Source: Hyphomicrobium sp. (GTDB lineage: Bacteria > Pseudomonadota > Alphaproteobacteria > Rhizobiales > Hyphomicrobiaceae). Taken from it: a stretch of 64,000 bases of DNA. The position numbers and the translations under genes were made by a program. This document shows positions 41,375-62,398 of the stretch, piece after piece (within the stretch, counting starts at the first letter, position 1; each line of letters begins with the position of its first letter). The stretch spans positions 47,371 to 111,370 of the forward strand of contig JASBSU010000008.1 in the NCBI GenBank assembly GCA_030148725.1. The letters run 5' to 3'. The notes under the pieces are model-generated. The model was given only the letters and a program-made list of their open reading frames with translations. It did not search any database and was not told where the DNA came from.

Positions 41375-41573
41375 TTCGCGTTTCTCGCTCGGTATGCGCG
41401 CCTCGCGGACCGAAGCTGTCTTCGGCTCACGCACGCTGAATCAGTTCGGGAGCCGGCGCGGCTAATCGCTTGTTAGCACTACCCTCCTATAGTCCCGAAC
41501 ATGGCAGATTGGATGGCCCTCGCGCGCCGCCAAAGAGCATGATGCCGCTCTGCCATGCCGGTGCGAGCCCGGT

Positions 41574-43478
41574 ATGTCGTCGCTAACAGCGGACAAGAGG
41601 CTCGCCGGTACAATGCTCGCCAATTTGAAGGTCTCACGCAAACTTGCGTTGGGGCTCGCGTCGATTCTCGTCGTGTTTGCCGTCACGGGAACCGCATTCT
41701 TCTTCACGCTACTGTCGATTGATCACGCCAACGTGGGCGTGGCGTCGGCGACGACACTCAACAAGCATCTCGTGAGCGCGACGTCGGACATCCACGACGA
41801 ACAGCGCGCGCAAGGATCGCCTGCTACCGCTGCGCAGGCCGCGCAGCGATTTGCTACTCAGATCGCAGCCGCGCGGATGATCGTCGATGCTCATCCAAAC
41901 GTTGCCGCCATCGGCTCAGACATAGATGCCATGCAGAGCGCTGCCGGCGCCTGGCGGCGCGATGCAGAGCGTGGAGACGCCAGCGCGATGAACGCTGCGT
42001 TCGATGCCTTCCGCACTGCCGCCGACAGCGCGCAGGCCAAGGCCGACGCGTGGATCAGCTCGGCGATGACCCAGCTGAACTCGGCACTTTACTGGTCGCA
42101 TGTCACGCAGCTGCTCGGTAGCCTGCTGGCCATCGGCATGGCGCTGATGGCGGGCTGGTGGTTGTCTCGCATGATCGCCCGTCCACTCGGAGAGATCACT
42201 GTCGCCGTGAACGGTCTTGCTGCCGGCAACAACGACATCAACGTTCCGTCTATCGATCGCCACGACGAGATCGGCTTGATGGCGAAGGCCGTCGAGACGT
42301 TCAAGCAGGCTGCGCTCGAAAAGCAGCGCCTCGAGGCGGAGGCTGAGGCCGCCCGCATCGCTGGCGAAGAAGCGCGGCGCAAGCAGGAAGCCGAGAGCCA
42401 GTTCTACATCGATGCTCACAACACGTTCATGCGCGACTTCTCGGCTGCCCTCGAGCGCTTGTCGAAGGGGGACCTGACGTTCCGCCTCAACACGCCGTTC
42501 ACCGAGGACCACGAGAAGATCCGTCACGACTTCAACACGACGGCATCGAGCCTGCAGGACGCACTGGTGACCATCGCCTCCAGTACCCAGGCGATCCGCT
42601 TTGCGACGACCGAGATCTCTACGGCTGCCGACGATCAGTCACGCCGCACGGCTCAGCAGGCCGCAAGCCTGGAGCAGACGGCTGCTGCACTCGACGAGAT
42701 CACGGCCACCGTCAAGAAGACTGCGGACGGTGCCGGCCACGCTCGCGAGGTCGTTGCATCGGCGAAGTCAGATGCGGAGAAGAGCGACGAAGTCGTGCGC
42801 CAGGCCATCTCGGCCATGGGCGACATCGAACGCTCCTCGCAGCAGATCAGCCACATCATCGGCGTGATCGATGAAATCGCCTTCCAGACGAACCTTCTCG
42901 CTCTCAACGCGGGCGTCGAGGCTGCACGTGCCGGTGAAGCCGGACGCGGGTTTGCCGTCGTCGCCTCCGAGGTTCGGGCGCTGGCTCAGCGCTCCGCCGA
43001 GGCGGCGAAGGAGATCAAGGGGCTCATCTCCGCTTCGACGAAGCAGGTCGAGCAGGGTGTCGATCTCGTTGGGCAGATGGGCAAGGCGCTCGAGCGCATC
43101 ATGACCGAGGTCACGGAGATCAACACGATCGTCTCCGAAATCGCGTCTGGTGCCAAGGAGCAGTCGGTCGGCCTGCAGGAGATCAACACCGGCGTCTCGC
43201 AGATGGATCACGTCACGCAGCAGAACGCGGCGGTCGTCGAGGAGACGACGGCAGCGAGCCACGGCCTGGCGCGCGAAATCGAGAAGCTGCTGGAACTCGT
43301 CAGCCGCTTCGAGACCGGGCACGAACTGGCGGCTGATCCCGCTCCGCGCGACGCACGTCCTGCGGCGACGCAGCCGAAGACTCGCACAGCCCTGAAAACC
43401 ATCTCCATGCGCGGCGTTCCGTCCGCGGTGCGGAAGCTGGAGGCCATCGCCAATGAGCAGGACTGGGAAGAGTTCTAA
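41574..43478 (+). CDS. Methyl-accepting chemotaxis protein with CheR/CheB tether
   Basis: 634 residues. Two membrane helices ([21 protein letters not shown] and [18 protein letters not shown]) bracket an external helical sensor of about 130 residues. A HAMP linker follows, then a further helical stretch and the signalling hairpin [42 protein letters not shown]. The last residues EQDWEEF match the xWxxF pentapeptide that tethers CheR and CheB. First gene of the che operon. ATG 41613 ([12 protein letters not shown]) is a possible alternative start. Confidence 0.93.
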
Positions 43479-57886: not shown

Positions 57887-57968
57887 GCGCCTCCCCGGCA
57901 ATTCGAATCCGGCTTATGGGTTATGAGGCGATCTTTGGTCGGGAACCTTGTGCGAGAATTGCCAACAG

Positions 57969-58001
57969 AAAAGCCAAGCCCTCTGAGAGAGCTTGGCTTT
58001 T
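57969..58001. terminator. Terminator between flagellin and fliF
   Basis: AAAAGCCAAGC (57969-57979) pairs with GCTTGGCTTTT (57991-58001); 11-bp stem, 11-nt loop, with a T run in the minus reading. It lies 22 nt past the flagellin stop. The stem matches that of the next flagellin terminator. Confidence 0.85.
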
Positions 58002-58023
58002 CGGAATATCGTCGATTGTGGCC

Positions 58024-58962
58024 TTAACGGAACAGGCTGAGGATGCTCTGGCTCGACGAGTTGGCGATCGAGAGAGCCTGAATGCCAAGTTGCTGCTTCA
58101 CCTGCAGAGCCTGAAGGCGCGTCGATTCCTCGTTCATGTCGGCGTCGACGAGCTGGCTGATGCCGCCTTCGATGGCATCCATGAGCGACGTCACGAACGA
58201 CTGCTGGATGTCGATGCGAGCCTTGGCAGCGCCGAGGCCGGTCGCGCCGGCGGCCATCTCGGTGATCGCGCGGTCGGCACCTTTGATGTAGCCGTCGAGG
58301 ATGGCCATATCGGCGGTGCTATCGGTGAGCGCGGAGATGTTCAAGCTGCCGACCGTGAAGGTGCCGGCGGCGTCGACGACACCCGTCGTGGCGTTACGCG
58401 AGGAATCGAGGATGCCGTTGGCGGCTGCGTTGGTGTCGAACAGCACCATCGAGGACGTGTTGATCGAAATCGTCTGCACCGACACCGAACCACCGGCGCG
58501 GCTGATCGAGGACACGACCTGCTTGGTCGCGTTGTAGCCGGCGGCCGAAGAGTCGACCGAAAGCCAGTTCTGACCCTGCAAAGTTGCAGAGGCGGCCATA
58601 CCCGAGAGCTGGGCCTGCAGCTCGCCGATTTCGGTCTGGATCTTGCCGCGGTCGAGGCCGGGCTGAGCGGCGGCGACCAGCTTGTCCTTGATCTTGGTGA
58701 CGATGTTCTTGGCTTCGTCGAGTGCGGTGTAGGCGACGTCAATGACGGCGGCGCCGAGGCCGAGCGCGTCCTGCACCGTGGAGAGCGACGACTTGTCAGA
58801 GCGCATGGTCGTTGCGATCGACCAGTAGGCGGCGTTGTCGGAAGCGGTTGCGACGCGCAGGCCGCTCGAAATGCGGCTCTGGGTCTGGGTGAGTGCCTGG
58901 TTGGTGGCCGTGAGCGACCGCAGCGCCGTCATGGCGGCGACATTGGTATTGATACTAGACAT
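58024..58962 (-). CDS. Flagellin (copy A)
   Basis: 312 residues, start MSSINTNVAAM. Conserved N-terminal helix (AAMTALRSLTATNQALTQTQ, SGLRVATASDNAAYWSI) and C-terminal helix (LVDADMNEESTRLQALQVKQQLGIQALSIANSSSQSILSLF), with a short variable middle. Polymerises as filament. Structured leader and AGGGACA ribosome site upstream. It is the copy nearest fliF. Confidence 0.97.
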   Translation of the reverse strand: MSSINTNVAAMTALRSLTATNQALTQTQSRISSGLRVATASDNAAYWSIATTMRSDKSSLSTVQDALGLGAAVIDVAYTALDEAKNIVTKIKDKLVAAAQPGLDRGKIQTEIGELQAQLSGMAASATLQGQNWLSVDSSAAGYNATKQVVSSISRAGGSVSVQTISINTSSMVLFDTNAAANGILDSSRNATTGVVDAAGTFTVGSLNISALTDSTADMAILDGYIKGADRAITEMAAGATGLGAAKARIDIQQSFVTSLMDAIEGGISQLVDADMNEESTRLQALQVKQQLGIQALSIANSSSQSILSLFR

Positions 58963-59077
58963 AAAGGTTTGTCCCTTGGCTACGCAGTACAAAACGGGGG
59001 ACATACCGGGTCGCGGCCGGCACGACAGCTCGGCATCATGCCCTTGAGCACGCGCCTGGCGCACTCAACCTGTCGTC
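58963..59077 (-). promoter_or_regulatory. Structured 5' leader of flagellin copy A
   Basis: Conserved with the other two flagellin genes. Pairings (plus coordinates): outer 59022-59028 ACGACAG with 59070-59076 CTGTCGT, inner TTGAG (59044-59048) with CTCAA (59064-59068). TGTCCC at 58970-58975 (the ribosome-site complement) faces GGGACA at 58998-59003. Resembles the flg-Rhizobiales RNA class. Confidence 0.75.
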
Positions 59078-59237
59078 CTCCAGATTTAGCCGGGGAGCGG
59101 TTGCAACAACGCTAAAATGCCGGGGCCAGTCTTATCTAAGGGCGTCGCGCCATCGCGGCTGTGGGAACGCACCTAAGCAGAGATTAATAGCGGGCCTGAC
59201 TCGTTAGGCTGCTGGCCATGCCCGCCGGAAATGGAAA

Positions 59238-59268
59238 AAGCCAAGCCCCCGGGAGAGGAGCTTGGCTT
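59238..59268 (-). terminator. Terminator of flagellin copy B
   Basis: AAGCCAAGC (59238-59246) pairs with GCTTGGCTT (59260-59268); in the minus reading GGCTTTTTCC follows. It lies 22 nt past the copy B stop. Confidence 0.85.
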
Positions 59269-59289
59269 CCTTGCGCGCTATTCCGACGA

Positions 59290-60255
59290 TTAGCGGAAGA
59301 GGCTGAGAATGCTCTGGCTCGAGCCGTTGGCGATCGAGAGCGCCTGAATGCCGAGCTGCTGCTTGACCTGCAGAGCCTGAAGGCGCGTCGACTCCTCGTT
59401 CATATCGGCGTCGACGAGCTGGCTGATGCCGCCCTCGATCGCGTCCTTGAGCGAGTCGACGAACGACTGCTGGATCTCGATACGGGCCTTCGCAGCACCG
59501 AGAGCGGTCGCACCAGCGGCCAGCTCGGTGATCGCACGATCGGCGCCTTTGATATAGCCGTCGAGGGTCGCCATGTCGGCGGTGCTGTCTGTCAGCGCGG
59601 CGATGTTGATCGTCGCGACCGTGAAGTCCGTCGCGGCGGGCACGGCCGGCTGAACAGCGTGACGGATACCCGTCGTGCCGTCCCGATAGGCGTCGAGGAT
59701 GCCGACGCCGCCGACAGCGGCGTTCGCGTCGAACAGCACCATCGACGAGGTGTTGATGGAGATGGTCTGGACCGAGATCGTGCCGTTGGCGCGGCTGATC
59801 GAAGAAACGATATTCTTGGTGCCGTTGTAGCCGGCGGCCGCGGAGTCGACCGAAAGCCAGTTCTGGCCCTGCAGCGTCGCGGCGCTGGCGATGCCGGAAA
59901 GCTGCGCCTGGAGCTCAGTGATTTCCGTCTGGATCTTGGCGCGATCGAGGCCGGGCTGCGCGGCGGCGACGAGCTTGTCCTTGATCTTGGTGACGATGTT
60001 CTTGGCTTCATCGAGCGCGGTATAAGCGACGTCGACCGTCGCGGCGCCGAGGCCGAGCGCGTCCTGCACCGTAGAAAGCGCCGAGTTGTCGGAGCGCATC
60101 GTGGTCGCAATAGACCAGTAGGCGGCGTTGTCGGCGGCGGTTGCGACGCGCAAGCCCGTCGAGATGCGATCCTGCGTCTGTGTCAGTGCCTGGTTGGTGG
60201 CCGTAAGCGACCGCAGCGCCGTCATGGCGGCGACGTTGGTGTTAATACTCGACAT
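59290..60255 (-). CDS. Flagellin (copy B)
   Basis: 321 residues, same ends as copy A, but with a longer, altered middle (DAYRDGTTGIRHAVQPAVPAATDFTVATINIAALT) replacing a shorter segment in A and C. Expected minor or variant filament subunit. Own leader and own terminator. Confidence 0.97.
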   Translation of the reverse strand: MSSINTNVAAMTALRSLTATNQALTQTQDRISTGLRVATAADNAAYWSIATTMRSDNSALSTVQDALGLGAATVDVAYTALDEAKNIVTKIKDKLVAAAQPGLDRAKIQTEITELQAQLSGIASAATLQGQNWLSVDSAAAGYNGTKNIVSSISRANGTISVQTISINTSSMVLFDANAAVGGVGILDAYRDGTTGIRHAVQPAVPAATDFTVATINIAALTDSTADMATLDGYIKGADRAITELAAGATALGAAKARIEIQQSFVDSLKDAIEGGISQLVDADMNEESTRLQALQVKQQLGIQALSIANGSSQSILSLFR

Positions 60256-60362
60256 TGAGGCGTGTCCCTAAAATGTACTTGTTGTTCCGGGGGACATACC
60301 GGATCACGCCGGCACGACAGTTCGGCATCATGCCCTTGGGCCTAATGACCCAACCTGTCGTC
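60256..60362 (-). promoter_or_regulatory. Structured 5' leader of flagellin copy B
   Basis: Outer ACGACAG (60314-60320) with CTGTCGT (60355-60361); inner TTGGG (60336-60340) with CCCAA (60349-60353). TGTCCC at 60263-60268 (complement of AGGGACA) faces GGGACA at 60291-60296. Confidence 0.75.
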
Positions 60363-60455
60363 AAACTACATTAGTGACGGCGACTTGAGGTTTGGTTATC
60401 GCCGCGGTGACTTGGATCACTCGGAGCGACGTTCCGTCAGGCGCAGTCTCTCGTT

Positions 60456-60479
60456 CCGGGCCCTCGTGAGAGGGCCCGG
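60456..60479. terminator. Hairpin after flagellin copy C
   Basis: Perfect 10-bp stem CCGGGCCCTC/GAGGGCCCGG with a 4-nt loop, 28 nt past the copy C stop. No T tract, so terminator or 3' stabilising hairpin. Confidence 0.6.
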
Positions 60480-60506
60480 GTGGTACGTTATCAGTTCATT
60501 TTGCCG

Positions 60507-61448
60507 TTATTGCCGGAAGAGGCTGAGGATGCTCTGGCTCGAGCCGTTGGCGATCGAGAGCGCCTGGATGCCGAGCTGCTGCTTCACCTGCAGCGCCTGC
60601 AGGCGCGTCGATTCTTCGTTCATGTCGGCGTCGACGAGCTGGCTGATGCCGCCCTCGATCGCGTCCATGAGGGCATCGACGAACGACTGCTGAATTTCGA
60701 TACGGGCCTTGGCGGCACCGAGAGCGGTCGCACCGGCGGCCATCTCGGTGATCGCGCGGTCAGCGCCCTTGATGTAGCCGTCGAGGATGGCCATGTCGGC
60801 GGCGCTGTCGGTGAGCGCAGAGATATTCAGCGTTCCAACGGTGAACGTGCCGGCGGCGTCGATAACGCCGGTCGTAGCGTTACGCGTGGAGTCGAGGATG
60901 CCGTTTGCCGCCGCGTTGGTGTCGAAGAGCACCATCGAGCCGGTGTTGATCGAGATCGTCTGCACCGAGATCGTGCCGCCCGAGCGGCTGATCGAGGAAA
61001 CGATCTTCTTTGTCGCGTTGAAGCCGGCGGCTGAAGAGTCGACCGAGAGCCAGTTCTGGCCCTGCAGCGTCGCGGCGCTGGCGATGCCGGACAGCTGTGC
61101 CTGAAGCTCGGTGATTTCCGTCTGGATCTTGGTGCGGTCGAGGCCGGGCTGAGCGGCGGCGACCAGCTTGTCCTTGATTTTGGTGACGATGTTCTTGGCT
61201 TCATCGAGCGCGGTGTAGGCGACGTCGACCGTCGCGGCGCCGAGGCCGAGAGCGTCCTGCACCGTCGAGAGCGCCGAGTTGTCAGACTTCATCGTGGTCG
61301 CGATCGACCAGTACGCGGCGTTGTCGGCAGCGGTCGCGACGCGCAAGCCCGTCGAGATGCGATCCTGCGTCTGCGTCAGTGCCTGGTTGGTGGCCGTGAG
61401 CGACCGCAGCGCCGTCATTGCGGCGATGTTGGTATTGATACTGGCCAT
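60507..61448 (-). CDS. Flagellin (copy C)
   Basis: 313 residues, start MASINTNIAAM. Middle similar to copy A. Same conserved ends. Its leader is structured, and it lies next to fliP. Confidence 0.97.
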   Translation of the reverse strand: MASINTNIAAMTALRSLTATNQALTQTQDRISTGLRVATAADNAAYWSIATTMKSDNSALSTVQDALGLGAATVDVAYTALDEAKNIVTKIKDKLVAAAQPGLDRTKIQTEITELQAQLSGIASAATLQGQNWLSVDSSAAGFNATKKIVSSISRSGGTISVQTISINTGSMVLFDTNAAANGILDSTRNATTGVIDAAGTFTVGTLNISALTDSAADMAILDGYIKGADRAITEMAAGATALGAAKARIEIQQSFVDALMDAIEGGISQLVDADMNEESTRLQALQVKQQLGIQALSIANGSSQSILSLFRQ

Positions 61449-61553
61449 GATGGCTGTCCCTGGATTTTCGAATCGGTCGGGGGACATACCGGATGTTGCC
61501 GGCACGACAGAGCGGCTTCATGCCCTTGGGCCTCGGCGGCCCAACCTGTCGTC
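61449..61553 (-). promoter_or_regulatory. Structured 5' leader of flagellin copy C
   Basis: Outer ACGACAG (61504-61510) with CTGTCGT (61546-61552); inner TTGGGCC (61526-61532) with GGCCCAA (61538-61544). TGTCCC at 61455-61460 (complement of the ribosome site) faces GGGACA at 61481-61486. Confidence 0.75.
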
Positions 61554-61606
61554 ACTCGATTTATAGTAAACGCTTGATTGAGGATTGGTAAACGCGTCGG
61601 TTACGT

Positions 61607-62398
61607 TCACGCGAAAGATCGGATCAGACCTCCGACGAGCAGGTTCCAGCCGTCGATCAGGACGAAGAACAGGATCTTGAACGGCAAGGAGATGACAGTC
61701 GGTGGCAGCATCATCATGCCCATCGACATCGTCAGCGTCGCGACGATCATGTCGATGACGAGGAACGGCAGCACCATCAGGAAGCCGATCTCGAAGCCGC
61801 GGCGCAGCTCAGAGATCATGAAGGCGGGGATGAGAACGCGAAGCTCGATGTTGGCCCCATCGGCGGTCGTCGGGGCGGGCGGCGGAGGCGGTGCCGGCGC
61901 ATCGGTCTTGGTCTGCTTGGGCCACAGATATTCGTGTGCCAGGTCGTTGAACAGCTTCAGGTCCTTGTCGCGGACGTTGGCCAGCATGAACGTGCGGAAG
62001 GGCGCGGAGATTTTCTCAAAGGCCTCTGCCTCGTTGATCTTGTTCTCCATGAGGGGAACGACGCCGCCCTGCCAGGCGCGATCGAAGGTCGGCGCCATGA
62101 CGTAGAGCGTCATGAAGAGGGCGAGGCTGATAAGAATGAGATTGGCTGGCGTGGTCTGCAGACCGATGCCCGCGCGGAGGAACGACAACGCGATTACAAA
62201 TCGCGTGAAGCACGTCACCATGATGAGGATGCCCGGCGCCACCGACAGCACCGTGATCAGGATGACGAGCTGAACGATGCGGCCAGCAGCACTCGTATCG
62301 CCCGCCGGCATCAGCTGGTCGAGGCCGGGGATCTGCTGTGCGGCGACCGGCGCAACGCTCAGCAGCAGCGCGCAGACAATGAGCAAGGCTCGCTTCAT
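61607..62398 (-). CDS. fliP: Flagellar export protein FliP
   Basis: 263 residues. Signal peptide (cut near VAAQ), then four membrane helices: VQLVILITVLSVAPGILIMV, ILISLALFMTLYVM, GFEIGFLMVLPFLVIDMIVATLTMSMGMMMLPP and LPFKILFFVLIDGW. LRAGIGLQTTPANLILISLALF is family-typical. Part of the FliPQR export gate. Overlaps fliL by ATGA. Confidence 0.97.
   Translation of the reverse strand: MKRALLIVCALLLSVAPVAAQQIPGLDQLMPAGDTSAAGRIVQLVILITVLSVAPGILIMVTCFTRFVIALSFLRAGIGLQTTPANLILISLALFMTLYVMAPTFDRAWQGGVVPLMENKINEAEAFEKISAPFRTFMLANVRDKDLKLFNDLAHEYLWPKQTKTDAPAPPPPPAPTTADGANIELRVLIPAFMISELRRGFEIGFLMVLPFLVIDMIVATLTMSMGMMMLPPTVISLPFKILFFVLIDGWNLLVGGLIRSFA

Follow-up and report, generated by a model that had tools for sequence, protein, structure and literature searches.

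A predicted five-helix leader RNA of flagellin and chemoreceptor genes in Hyphomicrobium with FlbT as candidate reader

Flagellin leaders in related bacteria and in Hyphomicrobium

The closest described counterparts of the RNA element reported here, a structured leader that precedes three flagellin genes in a stretch of Hyphomicrobium sp. DNA, are the FlbT-controlled flagellin leaders of Caulobacter (fljK), Brucella (fliC) and Bradyrhizobium (lafA1/lafA2). The stretch, hereafter the window, is the whole 64 kb that was analysed (assembly GCA_030148725.1, contig JASBSU010000008.1, positions 47,371 to 111,370). Our element shares with these systems its position in the flagellin 5' leader and the presence of flaF-flbT in the genome, and post-transcriptional control, proposed here, would be a further likeness. 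FlbT has been proposed to bind the flagellin leader (passages of PMC4347634 and PMC3930126). The Caulobacter protein is described there as promoting the decay of its targets (PMC4347634) or as a repressor (PMC3930126), the latter a difference from our proposal, whereas Brucella FlbT is proposed as an activator (both sources) and, in a passage of PMC8429497, translation of Bradyrhizobium LafA1 and LafA2 is induced by FlbT. Both the post-transcriptional mode of FlbT and the contrast between repressor and activator are called unclear in a passage of PMC4347634. Further excerpts name the Caulobacter flagellin FljJ as co-repressor with FlbT (PMC7591256), report that flbT and flaF were both hit in an Agrobacterium motility screen (PMC9812332) and that a Phaeobacter flbT mutant was still motile (PMC12363192), and place flbT and flaF within the lateral cluster of Bradyrhizobium (PMC6406911). 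Unlike our element, no order-wide five-helix family is mentioned in the review passages at hand, and a leader drawing for a single species may have been published. The element goes unmentioned in the available passages of PMC2864571, PMC3765529, PMC4347634, PMC8781033, PMC3930126, PMC7591256, PMC9812332, PMC12363192, PMC6406911 and PMC8429497. By analogy, it would work like an FlbT-controlled flagellin leader.

A second described system is the flg-Rhizobiales RNA (RF01736), which, as proposed for ours, regulates flagellar genes of this order in cis. Its fold and sequence differ from those of our element: it has a pair of UUGGGAG hairpins and, where the coding sequence starts, a third hairpin. 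No RF01736 copy was found in the window at the gathering threshold (55 bits; only a tRNA matched Rfam), in positions 57900-61700 at E values up to 5 (where two weak matches were unrelated), or in the genome that the window comes from. At gathering thresholds, Rfam families matched 0 of 20 related loci. The element is not a member of RF01736, and the leader-RNA family is absent from Rfam 15. As a side observation, RF01736 exceeded its cut-off in five of 199 genomes of the order (G136, G241, G211, G268 and G290) and matched more weakly in 18 more; its best-scoring copy (locus L083, 1501-1643) runs into a frame that reads like flgF.

The three flagellin genes of the window lie in tandem on the minus strand, and their nearest counterparts among the genomes searched are Hyphomicrobium flagellins with 92% and 84% identity.

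58024..58962, minus strand: fla1 flagellin gene (Pfam Flagellin_N 2.3e-30, Flagellin_C 1.3e-18)
59290..60255, minus strand: fla2 flagellin gene (Pfam)
60507..61448, minus strand: fla3 flagellin gene (Pfam)

The initial annotation of this DNA had noticed AGGGACA 6-7 nucleotides (nt) before each flagellin ATG and, upstream of it in a fixed element, TGTCCC complementary to GGGACA, with a loop between them that varies in sequence and length. All of this was borne out, and each of the three leaders contains GGTATGTCCCCC and AGGGACA. On the minus strand, the UGUCCC and GGGACA arms lie at 58998-59003 and 58970-58975 in fla1, at 60291-60296 and 60263-60268 in fla2, and at 61481-61486 and 61455-61460 in fla3, with loops of 22, 22 and 20 nt that are unlike one another in sequence. 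GGGACA ends 7, 7 and 6 nt, respectively, before the ATG, the first base of which is at 58962, 60255 and 61448. The octamer TGTCCCCC occurs three times in the whole window, always in these leaders, with 1.16 occurrences expected, and it appeared at least three times in 14 of 100 shuffles. Therefore, the octamer alone is weak evidence, and the weight rests on its fixed place in three leaders, not on its count. The pair itself is real, but the frame drawn around it was too narrow: the element begins about 65-75 nt further upstream, and the UGUCCC/GGGACA pair makes up no more than the output end of this larger RNA.

The predicted five-helix element and its targets

Each flagellin leader is predicted to fold into an outer helix P1 enclosing P2 and P3, followed by P4 and then P5. 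P1 is formed by ACGACAG/CTGTCGT, P2 by, for instance, TTGGGC/GCCCAA, P3 by GGC-AUGAN-GCC with the loop AUGA, P4 by GCCGG/CCGGU, and P5 by UGUCCC/GGGACA over the ribosome site. By eye, most of the flagellin upstream stretches from 60 relatives show the same order of parts. For 19 leaders, picked as clear examples and aligned with MAFFT without fitting to any structure, unconstrained RNAalifold returned P1-P5 with 28 pairs, 16 of which have two-sided changes that keep the pairing; this fold equals our earlier hand-written helices plus one pair. The hand-written structure is paired in 97.0% of the cells of this alignment, with two-sided changes in 15 pairs; none of 500 shuffles scored as high, and sliding the partners by 1-3 columns left 34-47% paired. 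A 150-row alignment, which was fitted to the model, is 94.7% paired and has two-sided changes in 25 of 27 pairs. Compensatory changes are numerous in P1-P4; P5 is likely, though less firmly supported. That the RNA element is real we regard as practically certain.

At E up to 0.01, a covariance model built from the 19 leaders (R1) matched 154 times across the window and 80 loci, and a second model (R2) was made from 118 matches. R2 found four copies in the window with E from 1.7e-20 to 3.5e-13, and nothing further scored better than 1.3; with all four below 1e-12, a chance origin of the leader was rejected. The initial annotation had listed the three flagellin leaders correctly but missed the fourth copy, which precedes a chemoreceptor gene.

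58963..59083, minus strand: fla1 leader, whole element P1-P5 (R2 84.2 bits, E 1.7e-20 at 58964-59083)
60256..60368, minus strand: fla2 leader, whole element (R2 80.6 bits, E 1.4e-19 at 60257-60368)
61449..61559, minus strand: fla3 leader, whole element (R2 79.7 bits, E 2.5e-19)
59022..59076, minus strand: fla1 P1 (ACGACAG/CTGTCGT) around P2 and P3 (GGCATGATGCC)
60314..60361, minus strand: fla2 P1-P3 domain
61504..61552, minus strand: fla3 P1-P3 domain
59070-59076 (fla1), 60355-60361 (fla2), 61546-61552 (fla3), minus strand: P1 5' arms
41494..41601, plus strand: fourth copy, chemoreceptor gene leader (R2 55.9 bits, E 3.5e-13)
41613..43478, plus strand: methyl-accepting chemotaxis protein gene (MCPsignal 7e-53, HAMP 1.8e-10)

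An independent tblastn search for flagellin starts covered the window and 79 related loci, which had been picked by protein similarity and not by the RNA. This gave 170 starts, one of them cut by a contig end, and 148 of the 169 uncut ones carry the element. In larger surveys, R1 and R2 each matched in 42 of 199 genomes of the order, and R2 matched in 54 of 103 genomes of the family; the filters in these surveys were stricter and miss weak matches, and the order may include many aflagellate genomes. R2 matched in three of 289 genomes in a sample of the class, including that of the window, with no convincing copy outside the order in this sample (Caulobacter fljK was not singled out). The other two of these three matches, at L144 and L145 outside the order, were weak and not flagellar, and were rejected. 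An exact pattern search of 103 genomes found the window's own genome only. Three Hyphomicrobium leaders (L023 3001, L032 691 and L043 731) show P1-, P2- and P4-like helices by eye with the AUGA loop absent, and R2 in a lax search misses all three (best E 0.16, at L043).

Among the 154 R1 matches, six (in the window and the 79 related loci) lie away from a flagellin start: those before the chemoreceptor genes of the window, L026, L030 and L036, one at L048 lying antisense to a flagellin leader, and one at L061 that is cut near the locus end and reads like a flagellin start. In addition, we inspected 40 hand-chosen matches from the survey genomes in three batches, reading the flagellins among them by eye. 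The first batch (19 matches) held 13 flagellins, four chemoreceptors, one PilZ protein and one match with nothing behind it, and the second (three matches) two chemoreceptors and a protein without Pfam match. The third (18 matches), chosen to include weak matches and genomes without FlbT, held five flagellins, two chemoreceptors (L229 by Pfam, L228 by eye), a CZB protein, a CheA-like frame recognized by eye, three GGDEF-domain proteins, and six unrelated genes or none. Eleven chemoreceptor genes are confirmed by a Pfam MCP domain (that of the window, L026, L030, L036, L124-L127, L171, L172 and L229), each with the element within about 230 nt upstream. The start codon of several lies 50-230 nt past the match, and therefore P5 does not lie at the ribosome site in these genes. 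The weakest matches (E above about 1e-5) are not trustworthy singly. Weak copies were also seen upstream of GGDEF and GGDEF-EAL genes and a PilZ gene (L221, L230, L236 and L131); if real, they would add cyclic diguanylate (c-di-GMP) signalling to the regulon.

The chemoreceptor gene of the window lies about 17 kb from the flagellin genes. Its start at 41613 was chosen within a frame open from 41574, as two relatives of the same genus begin with the same residues. In its leader P1-P4 are intact, and P5 reads by eye as UGUC(GU)CGC-UAACA-GCGGACA at 41575-41595, where R2 aligns UGUC/GACA. This P5 adjoins the ribosome site AAGAGG, so that a block here would come from its neighbourhood and not from pairing with the site itself. 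Two same-genus relatives (L124 and L125) have the same gene and element with altered P5 letters.

Co-occurrence with FlbT and the proposed mechanism

We propose that the five-helix leader RNA, preceding three flagellin genes and one chemoreceptor gene, acts on translation. In the flagellins, UGUCCC would pair with the ribosome site to form P5, which would likely hold translation off. P1-P3 with their near-invariant AUGA loop would form the reading site of a protein and P5 the output. The protein, likely the cell's own FlbT from the clade that accompanies the element, would bind and open P5, and FlbT would here be an activator. This reading as a whole, a leader RNA in which P5 masks the ribosome site until FlbT opens it, seems to us rather probable; taken singly, FlbT as the reader of the element is about an even call. 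Sequence comparison supports the P1-P5 fold and its conservation across the order, the position of the element ahead of flagellin and chemoreceptor genes, and its association with a single FlbT clade; that P5 lowers translation is what we infer from the predicted pairing. More tentatively, Hyphomicrobiales may possess a dedicated RNA-protein pair, in which one leader family and one FlbT clade form a translational regulon that turns on flagellins and chemoreceptors together, and the deep split within FlbT may explain the reports of an activator in rhizobial relatives and a repressor in Caulobacter. The element itself would be a structured RNA family missing from Rfam 15 and would link flagella with chemotaxis in one translational regulon, and the helices, the near-invariant loop and the natural variants make FlbT control directly testable.

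The genome of the window carries flgL-flaF-flbT-flgD on another contig (FlbT Pfam 2.1e-39, FlaF 3.9e-31; flgL and flgD by reading). Across the order, FlbT was found in 138 of 199 genomes, namely in 41 of the 42 with the element versus 97 of the 157 others (p 9e-7), and the sole element genome without it (G212) is 86% complete. FlbT proteins were further divided by the length of the Pfam match, in classes set after viewing the list and with G290 left out. When the match may fall up to two residues short of the model span, the longer class is represented in 41 of the 42 genomes that have the element versus six of the 96 FlbT genomes that lack it (p 2e-27); with the bar at one residue, the counts are 38 of 42 versus one of 96. 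Length is a rough proxy: of the six, G219 falls in the element clade of the FlbT tree, three (G210, G211 and G268) fall in the other, G228 is unplaced, and G251 is represented by its other copy only. In G290, which was left out, the FlbT match falls into two overlapping pieces (G290:C1:4965761-4966130), which suggests that the gene is broken or the sequence in error.

The tree was drawn from 40 genes hand-chosen from both classes, of which 38 were readable, plus the window genome's own FlbT (39 rows). It has two clades of 18 and 21 rows with 100/100 support, the bootstrap not being fully settled, and mean identity is 22% between the clades and 44-51% within them. All 20 element-linked FlbTs fall in one clade together with that of G219, a genome without R2 match whose 11 kb FlbT contig holds no flagellin. 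In all seven element genomes with two FlbTs, about 21 kb at most separates one copy from the element, and the other copy is distant or on another contig; in the four whose second copy is in the tree (G136, G218, G276 and G292) the near FlbT belongs to the element clade and the far one to the other clade. In G136, which has two flagellar systems, two tandem element-bearing flagellins lie about 12 kb from flaF-flbT, and four other flagellins, close to the second FlbT and to a copy of RF01736, lack the element; from these two systems we infer that the genome is Bradyrhizobium-like.

Several observations weigh against FlbT as the reader. Any gene of the same flagellar lineage would track the element, and the FlbT link may only reflect one shared flagellar lineage. 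The link is looser within the family, where 46 genomes have both element and FlbT, eight the element only, 12 FlbT only and 37 neither. Of the eight (among 54 with the element), five have it before a flagellin-like gene; genus g11 accounts for eight of the 12 without R2 match. When 60 kb from two g11 genomes were searched with lax settings, nothing convincing appeared; this carries little weight, as that DNA contains flaF-flbT but tblastn finds no flagellin in it.

The best-surviving alternative builds on the same points: the element would switch translation but answer to a metabolite, a small RNA or an RNA-binding protein other than FlbT. We consider it unlikely, yet the strongest of the rivals. 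A shared lineage can account for the co-occurrence, and the eight family genomes lacking FlbT agree with it, although four of them are less than 90% complete and several of their matches are weak. Set against it are the 41 of 42 element genomes of the order with FlbT, and passages of PMC4347634 and PMC8429497 that report FlbT as a flagellin regulator in relatives. Returning to FlbT, the suggestion in the initial annotation of an FlbT-like protein gains from the genome association and from the review passage on Bradyrhizobium (PMC8429497), with FlbT as a candidate for binding. Its parallel with Caulobacter is doubtful, given the class sample without a convincing element outside the order, reported repression there versus activation in Brucella and Bradyrhizobium, and the deep FlbT split. 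A search by sequence for solved FlbT structures returned none, with two chains at E 0.58 and 0.7.

P5 and the proposed masking of the ribosome site

That masking of the ribosome site is the output of the element in flagellins is likely from the predicted pairing. In the 118-row alignment, which was fitted to structure and thereby favours P5, P5 alone is paired in 99.3% of 692 cells, and two-sided changes occur in four of its six pairs (8 cells), against 0.5 pairs in shuffles. A structure-blind test covered 143 of the 148 leaders (132 distinct). A strong partner of the 5' arm (score at least 10) was found in 108 of the 132 distinct leaders versus 4% of shuffles, and the partner ends 4 to 9 nt before the ATG in 125 leaders. 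UGUCCC/GGGACA is replaced by UGUUCC/GGAACA in L040 and in the L228 and L236 elements upstream of chemotaxis genes. Folded alone, the 5' arm of P5 pairs near the start with probabilities of about 0.8 in fla1, 0.5 in fla2 and 0.77-1.0 in fla3; over 131 leaders, its mean pairing probability with the last 22 nt before the ATG is 0.68, exceeding 0.5 in 90. The initial annotation had read the pair as an on/off switch of translation. Most homologous leaders preserve the pairing with the ribosome site, so that the result it had named as a refutation, homologues without the pairing, did not arise.

The following results count against masking or against the fold behind it. Sliding the partners by +3 columns gave 13 two-sided cells, more than the 8 of P5, with only 29% paired. 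In the unfitted alignment of 19 leaders, P5 shows no two-sided change and five of its six pairs are invariant. The structure-blind test did not show covariation in P5: for the 31 leaders whose 5' arm is changed, their own arm pairs better than the canonical one in five, equally well in six and worse in 20. Changes in P5 are mostly one-sided with G-U tolerated, and clean double changes are few. Accessibility of the ribosome site differs modestly, on average 0.28 with the element (n = 131) versus 0.39 without (n = 21), and 21 of the 169 flagellin genes lack the element. Folding of all three flagellin leaders, as the initial annotation had suggested, gave modest z-scores (-1.55, -2.03 and -1.83; -0.77 for the chemoreceptor leader), and the consensus fold is the minimum-energy fold in fla3 alone of the four window leaders.

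A rival reading is a real structured RNA that mainly sets the life-time or processing of the mRNA, with P5 as a side effect of a purine-rich site facing kept pyrimidines. We judge this improbable, slightly more so than a reader other than FlbT. The few and mostly one-sided P5 changes, the TGTCCC arm in 101 of the 132 distinct leaders, and the decay that Caulobacter FlbT promotes in its targets (passage of PMC4347634) speak for it; on the other side, the ACA of GGGACA is unneeded for a ribosome site and is still kept opposite UGU, and both arms co-change in a few leaders. Two further rival readings were considered. A leader peptide could start at the near-invariant AUG of P3 or at an AUG on the P4/P5 border, for CATGA is present in 125 of 132 leaders, a P4/P5-border ATG in 129 of 132, and eight-residue frames from the P3 AUG recur. 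Over the whole set, however, the frame relative to the flagellin and the stop positions vary widely, and helix P3 itself covaries. A leader peptide was rejected on this inconsistency of frame and stop and is very improbable. In CsrA-FliW control, too, the flagellin ribosome site is masked, and AGGGACA offers a GGA there, but no CsrA match exists in the window's genome (96% complete) by a search that was positive in three of 14 control genomes, which leaves CsrA-type control as the least credible of all.

The ATG on the P4/P5 border at 59002-59004 and at 61485-61487 (minus strand) is in frame with the fla1 and fla3 starts, respectively, with no stop between. The same in-frame, stop-free arrangement is present in 21 of the 129 leaders that have an ATG there, and it looks like chance.

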